Shown one piece after another: positions 47,765-56,385 of a stretch of 64,000 nt of DNA. Position numbers and translations under genes: made by a program. Source of the DNA: Methanocaldococcus villosus KIN24-T80 (lineage in GTDB: Archaea; AGJL01; Methanococci; Methanococcales; Methanocaldococcaceae). The stretch's first letter is position 1, and every line of letters starts with the position of its first letter. The DNA lies in contig NZ_AQUK01000001.1 in NCBI RefSeq assembly GCF_000371805.1, positions 1-64,000 of the forward strand. The letters are read 5' to 3'. The notes beneath the pieces were generated by a model, which was given only the letters and a program-made list of their open reading frames with translations, did no database searches and was not told the origin of the DNA.

Positions 47765-47837
47765 AATATCACCCTAAATTATCTTTTACCCATTAGATAT
47801 ATATATTAGTTTATTAAATACTTTAATGGGTGATATT

Positions 47838-48725
47838 ATGGATCCAAAGGTCAGTTATTTTCAAACATTTATTATTGCTGCTAAAACAAAAAGTTTTTCT
47901 AAAGCTGCAAAAAGGTTAGGTATAACACAAGGTACAGTTAGTAACCATATTGCAGCTTTAGAAAAATTCTTTGATGCACAGCTTTTTTTAAGAACTCCTG
48001 AAGGTGTTGATCTAACTCCTGAAGGTGAAATACTTTTTGAGAGAGCTGAAAAGATATTAGATTTAATAAATGAAGCTAAAATGTTAATGAGAGCCATACA
48101 TGAAAATCCTGAAGGGGTTATTAGAATATATGCATCAACAACACCAGGAGAGCATGTATTACCATCAATTATAAAAGAGTATAAGAATCAATATAAAAAT
48201 GTTGATTTTGAGATAACAATAACTGACTCTAAAAACTGTTATAAAGCATTGGAGGAGGGGTTGGCTGATATAATAGCAGTAGGGTATTTAAAGAATGAAA
48301 ATTATGATTATACTATTATAGGGAAAGATAGACTTGTGCTAATTGTCCCACCAAATCATCCTTTTACTAAAAGAGAGTATGTGAGATTAGAAGATATATT
48401 AAAAGAAGATTTTATAGATAGAGAGGAAGGTTCAGGAACTAGGGAGACATTTATAAAAGCTTTGAATGAAAAGGGATATTCTATAATGGATCTAAATATA
48501 GTTATGAGACTTGGTAGTAGTTCAGCAGTAATTACAGCTGTCTCTGAAGGGTATGGTATTAGTATAGTTTCAGAAATTCCTGCTAAGAAAGCTGAAAATG
48601 CAGGATTGGTTAAGATTGTGCCTATAGTTGATTTTGATGTTGTTAGATATCTATATTTAATAAAAAGTAAACGACCAAAAAATCCCAGTGCTGTTAAATC
48701 ATTTTGGGAGTTTGTAAATAGGTGA
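47838..48725 (+). CDS. LysR-family transcription regulator
   Basis: 295 aa from ATG 47838, with GGTGA 4 nt upstream. The N-terminal winged helix is [30 protein letters not shown] in layout; the substrate-binding domain has [20 protein letters not shown] and [12 protein letters not shown]. LysR proteins are uncommon in archaea, but one of this type occurs in Methanocaldococcus. Its effector is unknown. asd starts 4 nt after its stop, so it may control or co-express aspartate-family amino acid synthesis. Confidence 0.92.
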
Positions 48726-49773: not shown

Positions 49774-50982
49774 ATAATAACCATAGCTTTCATAAAATTT
49801 TCCATTAACAATTGTATATATAGGGAAACCCCTAACCTTATATCCCTCAAATGGAGAAAATTTAGCTTTTGATTTAAATAAATCAACATCTATTTTACCT
49901 TCTTTCTTTATATCAACTATTGTTAAGTTAGCGTAATTACCTTCTCTAATACCATTATCTATATTAAAGATTCTTGAGGGGTTGTAAGATAGTAATTTAG
50001 CAGCAGTATAGAGGGATATATAACCACTATTAACTAAATTTAAAGTCATTGGGATTAAAGTCTCTAAGCCTGGAATTCCTGAAGGGCAGTTTTTTACATC
50101 TTTCATCTTTTCTTCTAACAAGTGTGGAGCATGATCTGAGGCTATAATATCTACCCTATCATTTAAAGCTTTTATTAAGGCAATATTATCTTCTTTATCT
50201 CTCAAAGGAGGATTTACTTTACCCAATCCTTTCAATTCATTAGCCATATCACAGTTTAGATATAAATGATGAGGGGTAACTTCAACAGTTACAGGTTTAT
50301 CTTTTAATACTTCTAAACCCTCTTTTGTTGACACATGACAAAAATGAACTTTAGCTCTTGATAGATTATTTAAAATTATTTTTATAGCTTCAATTTCAGC
50401 TTTTTTACATCTCACTTTACAATGGTCACTCCAATCATTTAATGAAAATTTTTTATAATTCTCTTCAATTATATCTTTATGTTCTGCATGAATACAAAAA
50501 AGTTTATCTTCTCTTAATATTTCTTTTAATTTGCTGTAATTTCTTATATACAATTCTCCAACAGATTTAACCATAAATATTTTATAAGCTTTAGCCTCTC
50601 TTAATGTTAATTTATAATTTTCATCAGTTACTCCAAAGTTTAAAAATATATTTACTAACTGTTTTTTAGCTTCTTTTAATTTTTCATAAAAAAGTTCTTT
50701 ATTTATAATTGGTGGATTGTCATTTGGCATATCTATAACAAAACAAACCCCTCCATTTATTGCTGCTAATGATCCACTATAAAAACCCTCTTTTTTACTT
50801 CTCCATCTCAAATGTACATGTGCATCTATAACCCCTGGAAAAACAAAATAATCTTTTAGATCTATACATTTATCATTTTCATTTATACATTTTCCTATCT
50901 TCTTTATTTTTTCCCCATCTATTATTATATCAGCTTCAACAATTCTATCTTCTTTAACTATTTTACAGTTTTTTAATATCAT
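49768..50982 (-). CDS. pyrC: Dihydroorotase
   Basis: 404 aa, class I type. The metal site is [10 protein letters not shown] at the N-terminus, followed by HAEHKDI, HFCHVST and [15 protein letters not shown]. It closes carbamoyl aspartate to dihydroorotate in pyrimidine synthesis. The start ATG overlaps the cupin stop (ATGA), so the two are coupled. Other pyr genes are not nearby. Confidence 0.95.
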
Positions 50983-51335
50983 TCTAACAACTCCGTATCA
51001 TTATCTGAGTATGCAGGGTAGCTAGCACATAAAATTTTTAGGGGTTTATCTCCTGTATTTATAACTTTATGCTTTGTATTTGGAGGAATTAAAATTGTAT
51101 CACCCATTTCTATTTCAAACTCTTTATTATCTAATATCATCTTTCCTTTACCTTCTAAAATAAAATAAATTTCTTCCGATGTTTTGTGCCTATGTAATAA
51201 TGTTTTTCCATTTATAGGGACTTCTGCTAAAGCTAAACTCTGCTTAGAATTGGCAAACTTTGGATGGATTAACTCTCTAATTATGGATCCATCTTTTGTT
51301 ATAAAGGCTTTAACATCTTTAACATTAACCTTCAT
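50979..51335 (-). CDS. Single-domain cupin protein
   Basis: 118 aa from ATG 51335. Cupin motif 1 is [19 protein letters not shown] (metal His, His and Glu) and motif 2 is [19 protein letters not shown] with the last His. It probably binds a divalent metal; substrate unknown, with mannose-6-phosphate isomerase-like cupins nearest. It leads pyrC, with a 4-bp overlap. Its upstream region (51336-51446) is shared with the divergent XRE gene and contains the palindromic site. Confidence 0.88.
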
Positions 51336-51405
51336 GGTCCCAACCAAAAATATATATTTTTTATCATATAATTTAAAAATTATGATTTAAGAAAGATTTA
51401 AATAT

Positions 51406-51430
51406 TTCCTGTAGGAATAAAATTATTCCA
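51406..51430. promoter_or_regulatory. Overlapping palindromes upstream of the XRE-eha unit
   Basis: GGAATAA (51414-51420) and TTATTCC (51424-51430) are perfect inverted copies around AAA. A second, overlapping pair TTCC/GGAA is at 51406-51417. A TATA-like TTTAAATAT (about 51397-51405) lies just upstream. The site lies 16 bp before the XRE start at 51447. This is the place an autoregulatory XRE protein would block transcription. It is not the NrpR operator spacing. Confidence 0.5.
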
Positions 51431-51446
51431 TAAGAATATTTGTGAG

Positions 51447-52082
51447 ATGATGTTTAAAAAATTAGAGATTATTGAGAGAGCTATATTGTTAAATCCAAGA
51501 TACATTCAATCATTTAGAAAAAAATTAAAAATTACTCAATCAAGATTAGCTAAAGAGAGTGGAATTAGCCAATCTCATTTAAGTATGCTTGAAAAAGGGA
51601 AAAGAGAAGCTAGTGAGTTAATAGCTGCTGCTATAACTTATGGACTATTAAAATGTTTTTCAGAAAAATCTAAAAACCCCATTATTGAACTTTTAGATAC
51701 CCTATCTCTACTAAAATTTGAAGATGCTTTTGCAGAGTTAGTTAATAATATTATTAAAGAGAATGATATAAAGTATATAAGAAATATAGATGGTTTTCCT
51801 GTCATAATAATTGATAAAGATAGTCTTATAAATGAAATGAAAAAAAGATTAAAAGTTATTAATTTAGAAAAAATAGAAATAAGTAGGGGAAAAATTAAAG
51901 CTTTTGGAAAACATATTGATAGTTATGTTGACATTATTTTAGACTGTTCAGACATAAGGAGATTAGAAAAAAAATGTTCAGAAAAAACAAAGAAAAACAT
52001 TATTATACAATCATTTCCAAAAGAAGAAGTTCCACCAATTTATGGAGTGAAAAGAGACTGTGTAATAATACACTGCTGGTGA
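51447..52082 (+). CDS. XRE-family helix-turn-helix regulator heading the eha operon
   Basis: 211 aa. The N-terminal HTH is [20 protein letters not shown] and [18 protein letters not shown] long C-terminal domain of about 130 aa has no motif I can name; it has cysteines in [16 protein letters not shown] and at the end (RDCVIIHCW). The stop overlaps the GGTGA of ehaA, which starts 4-7 nt later, so it is the first gene of the same transcript. It is a candidate regulator of the Eha hydrogenase, perhaps redox- or metal-sensing through its cysteines. Confidence 0.78.
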
Positions 52083-52086
52083 AATT

Positions 52087-52338
52087 TTGATGGGGTATAT
52101 TTTAGCTATAATAGTTTCAATGATATTTGCTTATTTATTTAAACTTCCACTAATTCCAAAAAGTAAATTCAGTTTTCAGACATCTATAATTTTTCCCACT
52201 CCAATAATAGCTTTAGGATTTTATGTAATATTCAAATACTTATTTTTTGATAGCATTTCCTTTTCAATTATATCTGGCATTATAGGAGCAGTTTTTGCAA
52301 AGTATTCTAATAAAATTTTTGGTGTTTGTAATGATTGA
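52087..52338 (+). CDS. ehaA: Energy-converting hydrogenase A subunit A
   Basis: 83 aa, two or three membrane spans ([20 protein letters not shown] and [15 protein letters not shown]). Assigned from order and size: ten genes of matching lengths follow in the EhaA-J order of Methanothermobacter. Starts at TTG 52087 or ATG 52090. Subunit of the membrane arm of Eha, a [NiFe] hydrogenase that uses ion-motive force to reduce ferredoxin and so refill the methanogenesis cycle. Confidence 0.85.
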
Positions 52339-52813
52339 AATTATTATAGCCACAATATTATGTTGGCTGAATTTTGTTATAATAGATACAATTTTTGGAT
52401 TACCAGAAAAACCAGGAGTTTTAGGAGCTAAAGTTATTGGAGAAAAAATAGAGAAGATTGGTGGTAATTTAAATGGTGGTTATTTTATGGGAAATATTGT
52501 TTGTTCTCCTGATGCTTCAGCTGGAACTTTATTAGGATCAATAATGACTTATTTAATGGGATTTGATGGAGGGTTATTAGCAGCATTTTTAGTTTGGATT
52601 GGAAATAGACTCTGTCATGATCCTGGATATGCTGGAAGTATTGGGGCATTATCAATAACAGTAATTATAACATTGCTAAAACCATTTATAACTCCAGAAA
52701 GCTTTATTGTAGGTTCTGTTTTAGCAATATTCACAATTCAAGGTTTATGTCATAAAGAAGCATCTAAAGTTCTAGGGAATATCTATAAAGCTGTGATAGG
52801 ATGGAAGAGATAA
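52331..52813 (+). CDS. ehaB: Energy-converting hydrogenase A subunit B
   Basis: 160 aa from ATG 52331, preceded by GGTG; overlaps ehaA by 8 bp. It has four membrane segments and the family motif [17 protein letters not shown]. Its role within the Eha membrane arm is not defined. It overlaps ehaC by 13 bp. Confidence 0.88.
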
Positions 52814-53040
52814 TTTATATAATAGCAATATTAATGCTTATCAGAATATTTTTAGAAAGAAGTAGAGAAAGAAAGCTATTATATCTTTGCTGCCTTTCAT
52901 TCTGTATATCTGCTTTAATAGCTTTATATGTAAAATCTCCTATGGGTGGAATTGTAGCTATTACCTTTTTTGTCTGCTCAACACTCTCGTCTAATGCAAT
53001 AGCTTATACTTTAGCTCAAGTAAAAGATTCAGAAAGGTGA
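52801..53040 (+). CDS. ehaC: Energy-converting hydrogenase A subunit C
   Basis: 79 aa with two or three spans ([43 protein letters not shown]). It starts inside the end of ehaB and ends just before GGTGACGTC, the site for ehaD. Identity rests on position and length. Confidence 0.82.
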
Positions 53041-53044
53041 CGTC

Positions 53045-53317
53045 ATGATAGAGTATATAGCATCACTTTGTTGTGTATTAGGAGCAATAGGAGTTATTTT
53101 TTATAAAAATCCTATAAATAAGATAATATTGCTTTCCCTAATTGAGATTGGAGTAATTTTGTTTATTGTTTATTATTATTATTTAGATATTGCTCTAATA
53201 ACCTCTTTGACAGAGCCTATATGTACAGTAATTTTATTAATTGGTTATATGAAATACCTATCCATGGTTAAAAGCAAAAAGAAATATGGTAGAGAACTAC
53301 CCATATTAACAAAGTGA
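53045..53317 (+). CDS. ehaD: Energy-converting hydrogenase A subunit D (MnhC/NuoK-like)
   Basis: 90 aa, three spans as in NuoK/MnhC: YIASLCCVLGAIGVIFYKN, IILLSLIEIGVILFIVYYY, and TEPICTVILLIGYM. A small antiporter-type subunit of the Eha membrane arm. Strong GGTGACGTC precedes ATG 53045. Confidence 0.82.
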   Translation: MIEYIASLCCVLGAIGVIFYKNPINKIILLSLIEIGVILFIVYYYYLDIALITSLTEPICTVILLIGYMKYLSMVKSKKKYGRELPILTK

Positions 53318-53321
53318 TAAT

Positions 53322-53567
53322 ATGATAATTTTATACATAAGCTACTTCCTTTTGATATTTGGCACATTAGGAGCATTGGTTGGATATGATACAAAAGATC
53401 CATTAATTAGATTTTTAAACTTAGAAGTAGTTAATATGGGAGTTTGTCTAGCATTTTTAGCCTATGATATGGCATTAGCGTTAATGACGTTTATAGCAGT
53501 TAATACTATCCTAACTATAATATTTGTTAGATCAATAATATTATACAAAAAATTAGAGGATGAATAA
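53322..53567 (+). CDS. ehaE: Energy-converting hydrogenase A subunit E
   Basis: 81 aa with three spans ([59 protein letters not shown]). Resembles the MnhC-like small subunits. GTGATAAT precedes ATG 53322. Assigned from place in the EhaA-J order. Confidence 0.82.
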
Positions 53568-53569
53568 CT

Positions 53570-54001
53570 ATGATTGGGAAAATTTGGAATTATCTTTCAA
53601 AGCCTGAAGTAGTTCCAAGAATATTTGCATTGTTTTTAGCTATATTTTTATTATTTGGATTTTTTAATCATTACTACAAAATTCCTAATCAACTCTATCC
53701 AAAGCCTAAACCTCATTCTCAAATATTAAAAACTCCTTTAGCCCCATATGATAGAAACATTGTCAAAGCTCAATATCCAAACTATTTAAAAAACTTAGGA
53801 AAAATTACATCTTATCTTACTCCAATAGCTGAATTTATCAAAGATAAAACATATTTTTTTGGAACTACTATTGTTTCTACCCCAGGAGGGATTTTAGATG
53901 AAATATTATATTATACCAGAGGTATGGATACAGTTTTAGAAAGTACTGTTCTATTAATATCATTTATGATATTCTCATGGATGTTTTTCCATAGGAGGTG
54001 A
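53570..54001 (+). CDS. ehaF: Energy-converting hydrogenase A subunit F
   Basis: 143 aa: one N-terminal span ([19 protein letters not shown]), a soluble stretch with [20 protein letters not shown], and a C-terminal span ([19 protein letters not shown]). Two anchors around an external loop are typical of the family. Start 2 nt after ehaE; overlaps ehaG by 4 bp. Confidence 0.83.
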
Positions 54002-54666
54002 TTAATATCTTCAGTTTAACTATCTTAATAGCTTTAATTATTGGTTTTCTTTCACTGTTAGCTATTTATTTTCAAAAAGATGATTTACATGCATTCATAT
54101 TAACTGATATTGTTGAAAGTGCTATGCTTATTATATTAGCAGCAATATCAACAGACTTAGCTGAAGCTTTAATTTTACCAGGATTAGTTGTTAGTTTAGC
54201 AGAATTATTAGCTGTATCCCAAGTTTTATTAACAAGAAATTCTATATCTAAAAATAATAAAAAAGTAGATATTTTTGAAGAGTTTAGGCTACCTTTACAA
54301 GATAAAATTTTAAAATATGATGTGGAAATGGAAATATTAGAAACTGCTCCAAAGTTCTTTGCTATTATTTTAGTGATCTATGGAGCTATACTTTCTGGTT
54401 TTACTGGAGGAGCAGTAATGGCTTCTGGGTTATTATTTTATGCTATAACACAAAAGGCTATAGGAAAAGAGCTTATGAATATGTGGAAAGGAGTTACTGG
54501 ACTATCTGGGGTAGCATGGGCTTTGTGGATATTTGGATTCTTAGGCTTTTACATATTTCCAAAATACTGGTTAGCCTTCCTATTAATGGCTGGTTTAGGG
54601 TTAGTTATAAAAGTAGGTTATAAATTAGGGCTAATTGGATATGTGAGAGGGGAATTAGATGATTGA
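53998..54666 (+). CDS. ehaG: Energy-converting hydrogenase A subunit G
   Basis: 222 aa, about six spans. It includes [20 protein letters not shown] and the MnhB/MbhD-like [17 protein letters not shown]. The start is written as GTG 53998, but GGTGA covers that codon, and the codon 5 nt beyond the site is ATC, so the true start is not certain. Overlaps ehaF by 4 bp and ehaH by 8 bp. Confidence 0.82.
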
Positions 54667-55312
54667 ATTACTTGGAAACATCTATGCACTAGTTCCATTT
54701 GGAGATATTATATTTTTATTCTCAGATTTTTCCATAATTGGGTTTATTATTGCAATAGTCTTTACTATAATAGTCTATTTAACAAAGCCAGAAAAGCAGC
54801 TGGAAATTCAAAAATTTGGAGAGGATGTGTTAGTAAAAATACCCTTAGAAGAGTTGAAGATAAGAAGATTTATGGCAATAGCTTGTGGGATTGCTACAGC
54901 TGGGGCTATGCTAACATATGATTTATTTGACTTCTGCCTATTCTTAGCACTGATTGGGATAACAAATATTGGGATTGTCTCTGCAGTGAAGAAAGAACAT
55001 GTTTTAAATGCAGCCTATCAATATGGATTAATAGCTATAATCTCATCATTACCACTTTTTGCATCAGCAGGTTTAGTATTAGCAAAAACAGGTACTCTTT
55101 CACTATTAGAACTAAATAAAATAAATACTAACCTAATTTATGAAAAAATTTTATTCTCTATTGGAGTAGCTGGAGAGACTGGAGTGGCTCCCTTTTATGC
55201 TGCAAAAGCAGAGATGTTTAGAGCTCCAGGGGCACCATATATATTAATGATTCATTTATCATCATTACTATTAATTCTTAGAAGTGTTGAAATTTTATTA
55301 TCTATAAGGTGA
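54659..55312 (+). CDS. ehaH: Energy-converting hydrogenase A subunit H (ion-pump-like)
   Basis: 217 aa with about six spans, related to the short antiporter-like NuoL/N proteins: [20 protein letters not shown], then [21 protein letters not shown], the latter close to the conserved loop of proton-translocating subunits. It probably carries the ion path with ehaJ. Overlaps ehaG. Confidence 0.85.
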
Positions 55313-55318
55313 TATTAA

Positions 55319-55519
55319 ATGGATACTGAAAGAAAGTATGGGTTATGTTTATTAATAATTGGAATATTATCAGCTTTTGGTATGGTTATAACAAGTGGAT
55401 GGTTATGCTATATCTTATATTCAATCTCCCTACCTTCTATCCTATATGGAGTGGGATCATTTTTAATACCAAAAACTAGAAGAAAATACCCAGGTAATTT
55501 ACCATTTAGGGGGATATAA
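55319..55519 (+). CDS. ehaI: Energy-converting hydrogenase A subunit I
   Basis: 66 aa with two spans (CLLIIGILSAFGMVITSGWL, YILYSISLPSILYGVGSFLI) and a basic tail. GGTGATATTAA precedes ATG 55319. Its stop overlaps the ehaJ ATG. Function within the complex unknown. Confidence 0.82.
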   Translation: MDTERKYGLCLLIIGILSAFGMVITSGWLCYILYSISLPSILYGVGSFLIPKTRRKYPGNLPFRGI

Positions 55520-56385
55520 TGGACATGTCAATAATATATATATTAAACCTTACATTTCATGCATTTTTAGTAGGTTCTCTCCTTCTAGGCTTTCATAGAA
55601 AGCTCATAGCAAGAATTCAAGGAAGACCAGGACCTCCTGTTATACAGTATTTATTACATACAATAAAGTTCTACTTTAAAGAAATAACATTTCCAATAAC
55701 AGCTGGAAATCCATTATATATATTCATCCCATTATTTGATCTTTCAATTTGGTTAATAGCTTTAATAATAGCTGTTGTATTGAAATCATCCCTATTAATA
55801 TTAATAGGCATATACATCTTACAAAAAATAGTAGAACACGGTTGTGGATTATCTTCTGGATCACCATATGGAAAGATGGGAGGGGTTAGAAGTGTATTTT
55901 CAGCAGCTGCAGAGGTTCCTTTATTCTCTGCTGTAGCTGTTGTATATTTAGCTGTGAAATCAACATTAATTTCAGACATTATAGCATATCAACAAACCAA
56001 TGGAGCATTGATCTTTAAACTCCCAATTGCAGCATTTGCTTTCTTTATACTTTTAGCATCAAAATCACCATACAGTCCATTTGGTATTGTTAAAGGGAAG
56101 GATATAGTTAGTGGATACATGACAGAGCACTATGGTTTGTTAGCATCTATAATTTATATAGCTGAATCAATATCCTACTATGTTCTATTATGGTTATTTA
56201 TAACAGTATTTTTAGGAATAACAGGAATAATTCCTACACTTGCAGCTATGGTAGTATTAACAATAATATTATCATTTATATCAGCACTAACCCCATTACT
56301 TGCCCCACATCATTCAGTTATGCTACAGATGAGTATAGCAGGGCTGGTGCTGATAGATGTTATATATAGATTATTGGCATATTAA
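55519..56385 (+). CDS. ehaJ: Energy-converting hydrogenase A subunit J (NuoH-like)
   Basis: 288 aa, about eight spans, homologous to NuoH/HycD: RKLIARIQGRPGPPVIQYLL is the hallmark, with the charged loop after it (FYFKEITFPITAGNP) and KSPYSPFGIVKGKDIVSGYM. NuoH-type subunits link the electron-carrying arm to the ion pump. ehaK onward, including the large and small hydrogenase subunits, do not follow; ftsY starts 11 nt later. Confidence 0.92.
   Translation: MDMSIIYILNLTFHAFLVGSLLLGFHRKLIARIQGRPGPPVIQYLLHTIKFYFKEITFPITAGNPLYIFIPLFDLSIWLIALIIAVVLKSSLLILIGIYILQKIVEHGCGLSSGSPYGKMGGVRSVFSAAAEVPLFSAVAVVYLAVKSTLISDIIAYQQTNGALIFKLPIAAFAFFILLASKSPYSPFGIVKGKDIVSGYMTEHYGLLASIIYIAESISYYVLLWLFITVFLGITGIIPTLAAMVVLTIILSFISALTPLLAPHHSVMLQMSIAGLVLIDVIYRLLAY

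Follow-up and report, generated by a model that had tools for sequence, protein, structure and literature searches.

Eha is an essential energy enzyme that feeds reduced ferredoxin into the methanogenic cycle, and in M. maripaludis its genes could not be deleted (PMC3087415). Expression of eha is regulated, since published transcript and protein levels change with H2: eha transcripts drop as H2 falls in M. jannaschii (PMC10025317), in M. maripaludis H2 limitation brings a modest increase in EhaM and EhaP (PMC2723118), and Eha goes up in coculture (PMC3600222). The locus described here lies in a stretch of 64,000 nt from Methanocaldococcus villosus KIN24-T80 (NZ_AQUK01000001.1, positions 1-64,000, plus strand; genome 1.25 Mb), hereafter the window. 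The original prediction was that an XRE-family regulator and a palindrome in front of its gene form a self-contained arrangement for the control of eha. Literature searches on the eha operon, its regulation and its gene names, with subscription papers outside their coverage, found no description of this regulator and none of any other regulator of eha.

The XRE gene does head the eha operon, as had been predicted. It occupies positions 51447-52082 on the plus strand and encodes a protein of 211 amino acids with an HTH_3 match; the true start is probably at 51450, because the relatives begin at the second methionine. The stop codon at 52082 is followed 7 nt later by the ATG of ehaA at 52090 (identified by PF17367), the first of the genes ehaA-B-C-D-E-F-G-H-I(like)-J (52090-56385, plus strand), which make up the first half of a split eha operon and are succeeded by an SRP-receptor-like (FtsY) gene. 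The comparison set comprised 36 genomes of the Methanococcales, the same 36 being all that a genome search of the whole phylum gave. All 36 contain both EhaA and an XRE orthologue (53-71% identity), and in every one the XRE gene lies directly upstream of ehaA on the same strand, with a gap that ranges from -12 to 196 nt and is 42 nt or less in 30. The adjacency that the original prediction had proposed to look for in relatives is therefore general in this set, and a regulator that is kept next to its target in the same orientation is what is expected of a local autoregulator. In other species ehaA is MJ0528/MMP1448 (PMC2674652), so that MJ0529 and MMP1447 would be the gene names of the neighbouring XRE; literature searches by gene name gave nothing for MJ0529 and unrelated matches only for MMP1447. 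A contig search with the single XRE protein gave no match and one with the XRE alignment gave Methanococcales plus one unrelated HTH, while viral contigs yielded weak HTH matches only; in these searches the C-terminal domain is restricted to Methanococcales. In L036 (G023) the XRE gene seems to be frameshifted near its C-terminus, and in L018 (G011) it is interrupted by an in-frame TAA; either decay or sequencing error would explain these disruptions. Divergent from the XRE gene in the window is a small cupin gene (50979-51347, minus strand), the place of which is taken in G001, G022 and G035 by a gene for a zinc-finger protein that by eye looks ZPR1-like; this too is a sign that the locus has been rearranged.

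The regulator itself belongs to the Cro/CI-type one-component proteins, with which it shares an HTH with a canonical recognition helix and a dyad beside its own gene. Its match to HTH_3 (PF01381) has an E-value of 2.8e-10 and 40.5 bits against a Pfam cut-off of 23, and the same family is matched in all 21 orthologues of the protein alignment. An AlphaFold2 model (pLDDT 91.5) divides the protein into the HTH (residues 19-60), a long helix (78-104) and an orphan alpha/beta domain (111-210). Across the 21 aligned sequences the SQSHLSMLE recognition-helix region shows no variation at all, whereas the C-terminal domain is much more variable. It is this C-terminal half that sets the protein apart from other XRE regulators, for it has no recognised domain and no Pfam family match (the domain matches being of HTH_3 type alone), and when modelled separately (pLDDT 90) it returned no fold match from the PDB (best E 0.38). 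Presumably it is an unrecognised sensor domain. The nearest solved structures, Stl and C.Esp1396I, cover the HTH only. The SaPI repressor Stl (Orf20; 6h49, 7pwj) is the best PDB match in both sequence (E 2.4e-4) and structure (Foldseek E 8e-3), the similarity being confined to HTH residues 18-55 and not extending over the full length, so that it reflects the general XRE relationship and not orthology to a Stl-type repressor. The restriction-modification controller C.Esp1396I, which autoregulates by placing two dimers on adjacent dyads, has the XRE fold in common with our protein, but has nothing beyond the HTH and governs a restriction system, whereas the XRE described here has an added C-terminal domain.

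The original prediction drew attention to several C-terminal cysteines. They are present at residues 167, 177, 205 and 210, but the importance hinted at for them is weakened by the alignment, in which no cysteine is invariant across the family: C70 is absent in L020, L022 and L023, C167 in L033-L035, C205 in most of genus g3, and C210 in L005 and L009-L011. A cysteine-based metal or Fe-S sensor is therefore unlikely. A dedicated hydrogenase regulator is already known from methanogens in HrsM, a LysR-type repressor of the selenium-free hydrogenases of Methanococcus voltae. However, HrsM targets F420-reducing and Hdr-linked hydrogenases and is a protein unrelated to XRE, which does not have the LysR domain architecture and was thus rejected as a repressor of this type. 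The window does contain a LysR regulator gene (47826-48725, plus strand) whose score exceeds the NF040786 cut-off (selenium-metabolism LysR, HrsM-like); it adjoins an aspartate-semialdehyde dehydrogenase-like gene and is separated from the eha operon by 2.7 kb.

Upstream of the XRE gene, all on the plus strand, are a BRE-like GAAAGA (51391-51396), a TATA-like element TTTAAATA (51397-51404) and the putative operator O1, a central palindrome GGAATAA-AA-TTATTCC at 51414-51429. On the left O1 is overlapped by TTCC-TGTA-GGAA (51406-51417), in which an outer half-site TTCC (51406-51409; TYC in relatives) forms a dyad with the GGAA at 51414-51417, and on the right it is followed by a further half-site, GAATA, at 51434-51438 (family consensus GNRATA). 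The overlapping TTCC/GGAA pair and the TATA-like element are thus as originally described; the palindrome also exists, with a spacer of 2 bp rather than the 3 bp first given, and the 17-mer with the longer spacer is absent from the genome. In archaea the first transcribed base is normally some 25 bp beyond the TATA box, so that the expected start falls within O1. A dyad of this kind is in itself no evidence for an operator: there are 97 perfect dyads with 7-bp arms and spacers of 0-6 nt in the 64-kb window against 95 in Markov sequence, and for this reason the window alone is unable to support one.

It is the comparison with relatives that makes the case. An O1-like site follows closely on the TATA box in 35 of 35 readable promoters, spanning two families and five genera; it is weaker in L012 and L013 (G003, G009), and clearly degenerate in L013 only. 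(The G011 contig starts inside the XRE gene, and the site of L012 was re-placed by hand in the site alignment.) The distance from the TATA-like element to O1 is constant in the relatives, whereas that from O1 to the start codon runs from about 9 to 233 nt, which indicates that O1 is part of the promoter and is not tied to the start codon. Among the 28 distinct sites used for site statistics the centre is approximately RGAATAANNTTATTCY; positions 4-6 and 11-15 do not vary, and positions 23-25 are invariant or nearly so. The flanks are conserved as well, with TYC on the left (T in 28/28, C in 26/28) and GNRATA on the right (ATA in 28/28). O1 and its flanks thus amount to four half-sites that alternate over a span of about 33 bp and would accommodate a pair of dimers. 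In the clade of L020, L022 and L023 the central letters have changed symmetrically to GAATATTAATATTC with the dyad kept. Covariation across the dyad was not above shuffles in number, a measure that is uninformative here because the site hardly varies; the argument for a putative operator is carried by conservation, not by covariation. Sixteen genomes from both families have a second inverted repeat, GGAA-N6-TTCC, in the leader 33-34 nt after O1 (46 nt in L009), the carriers being L002-L011, L014, L015, L017, L019, L021 and L036. It is possibly a second operator, and is absent from the genome of the window.

The site is also nearly unique within each genome. The exact sequence GGAATAANNTTATTCC occurs just twice in the 1.25 Mb of M. 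villosus, at the heads of both halves of the eha operon. When a site profile was run over the 36 genomes, 32 had a single site with E < 1e-4, located at the eha XRE promoter, and M. villosus had two, at the two eha halves; the sites of G003 and G009 scored weaker. As the profile was trained on the sites recovered, their recovery is by construction, but the absence of comparable sites elsewhere is independent. A conserved operator-like site in the regulator's own promoter, and almost nowhere else, is again what is expected of a local autoregulator. A wider regulon was considered and rejected, since the other exact palindromes read in relatives mostly fell inside coding regions, at their margins or in unrelated stretches between genes. 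One exception, found in one genome only, is a strong extra O1-like site at G032:C47:12859 (L133 1450-1500), which has a TATA element as well as outer half-sites and lies between genes for a beta-carbonic-anhydrase-like protein and an HtpX-like protease.

The second copy of O1 in M. villosus is accounted for by the history of the operon. The eha genes of this organism are split, with XRE and ehaA-J in the window and the second half, ehaK-L-M-N-O-P-Q-R, 1.04 Mb away (G000:C1:1,089,581-1,094,397, minus strand; L094 7582-12398). In five relatives of which the loci were read at length (G001, G003, G009, G022 and G035) the first half continues unbroken into the second, and the break between ehaJ and ehaK therefore occurred in the M. 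villosus lineage. The original prediction had proposed looking for the palindrome upstream of the remote genes, where it is indeed present (C1:1,095,220-1,095,235) within a 63-bp segment (C1:1,095,202-1,095,264, minus strand) that is letter-for-letter identical to the promoter and operator region at 51385-51447 of the window (plus strand). In this lineage the two eha halves would be read from an identical promoter and operator. Exact identity over 63 bp suggests either that the event is recent or that gene conversion has taken place. The duplication of a promoter would carry O1 along whether or not O1 works, and so the identity alone is no proof of function. Between the copied promoter and ehaK is a gene (L094 12403-13200, minus strand) for which an assignment as 8-oxoguanine glycosylase was rejected in favour of DUF2400 (TIGR02757-like); homologues occur in four of the 36 genomes, and the gene has probably been acquired and is now under eha control.

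Taken together, the adjacency in 36 of 36 genomes, the site conserved throughout the order and the copy in front of ehaK-R support the self-contained control that was originally proposed. The XRE protein is, with a probability that we put at about 0.7, a dedicated autoregulator of eha, most likely a repressor, acting through O1 in trans on both halves of the operon. A dimer or a pair of dimers would bind GGAATAA-NN-TTATTCC together with the half-sites on either side, close behind the TATA box, and there block RNA polymerase, so that the eha unit is repressed. Autorepression is the simplest reading because a protein sitting at O1 should obstruct the polymerase. As the XRE gene heads the operon, the regulator would set its own level along with that of Eha, and in M. 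villosus the single XRE gene would control both halves in trans through their identical promoters. The orphan C-terminal domain presumably responds to some cue linked to H2, to ferredoxin or to a further metabolite. Gene order, operator conservation, the near-uniqueness of the site and the promoter duplication are observed, while binding, repression and ligand are predicted.

Sequence does not reveal in which direction the control works, and since Eha levels shift both ways in different studies it is conceivable, though unlikely, that XRE binds the operator and activates eha, or activates or represses depending on its ligand. The position of O1, between the TATA box and the gene and over the expected start site, speaks against activation, for archaeal factors that bind over the start site usually block polymerase and activators mostly bind upstream of the BRE and TATA box. 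The pairing of XRE with O1 follows from position and shared conservation only, and another factor could bind the dyad, be it a global regulator or an architectural protein, with XRE acting elsewhere or being a co-transcribed passenger; the HrsM-like LysR gene lies 2.7 kb away. A global factor would have many sites, however, whereas the profile finds essentially the eha promoter alone in each genome, and short dyads of this kind beside their own genes are the typical targets of XRE-type proteins. This alternative is still more improbable than activation. We give least credence to the footprint being a core-promoter or 5′-leader element, such as an initiator or an RNA hairpin, in place of a site for a protein. 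The location of O1 at the expected start site would fit such an element, as would the further GGAA-N6-TTCC repeat in the leaders of some relatives; but a general initiator should recur at other promoters, and the profile recovers none, while the A/T-rich composition of the dyad and its alternating outer half-sites are in keeping with protein binding to DNA, and an RNA hairpin so short and so rich in A and U would not be stable in a hyperthermophile.

Repression by XRE through O1 would make this protein a local autoregulator of a well-known kind, but one whose sensor domain is unrecognised and whose target is important. More tentatively, and at somewhat less than even odds, its orthologues may constitute a group of one-component regulators restricted to the Methanococcales, with a sensor domain of a new type, Eha as their single target, a role in redox or H2 sensing and, in M. 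villosus, coordination of a split operon in trans. The conserved pair of protein and operator spans an order that includes the genetically tractable M. maripaludis and M. jannaschii, which renders the regulation of eha directly testable, and XRE with O1 could serve as a switch where eha expression is to be engineered. The split operon with its twin promoters, for its part, offers a natural test of control in trans.
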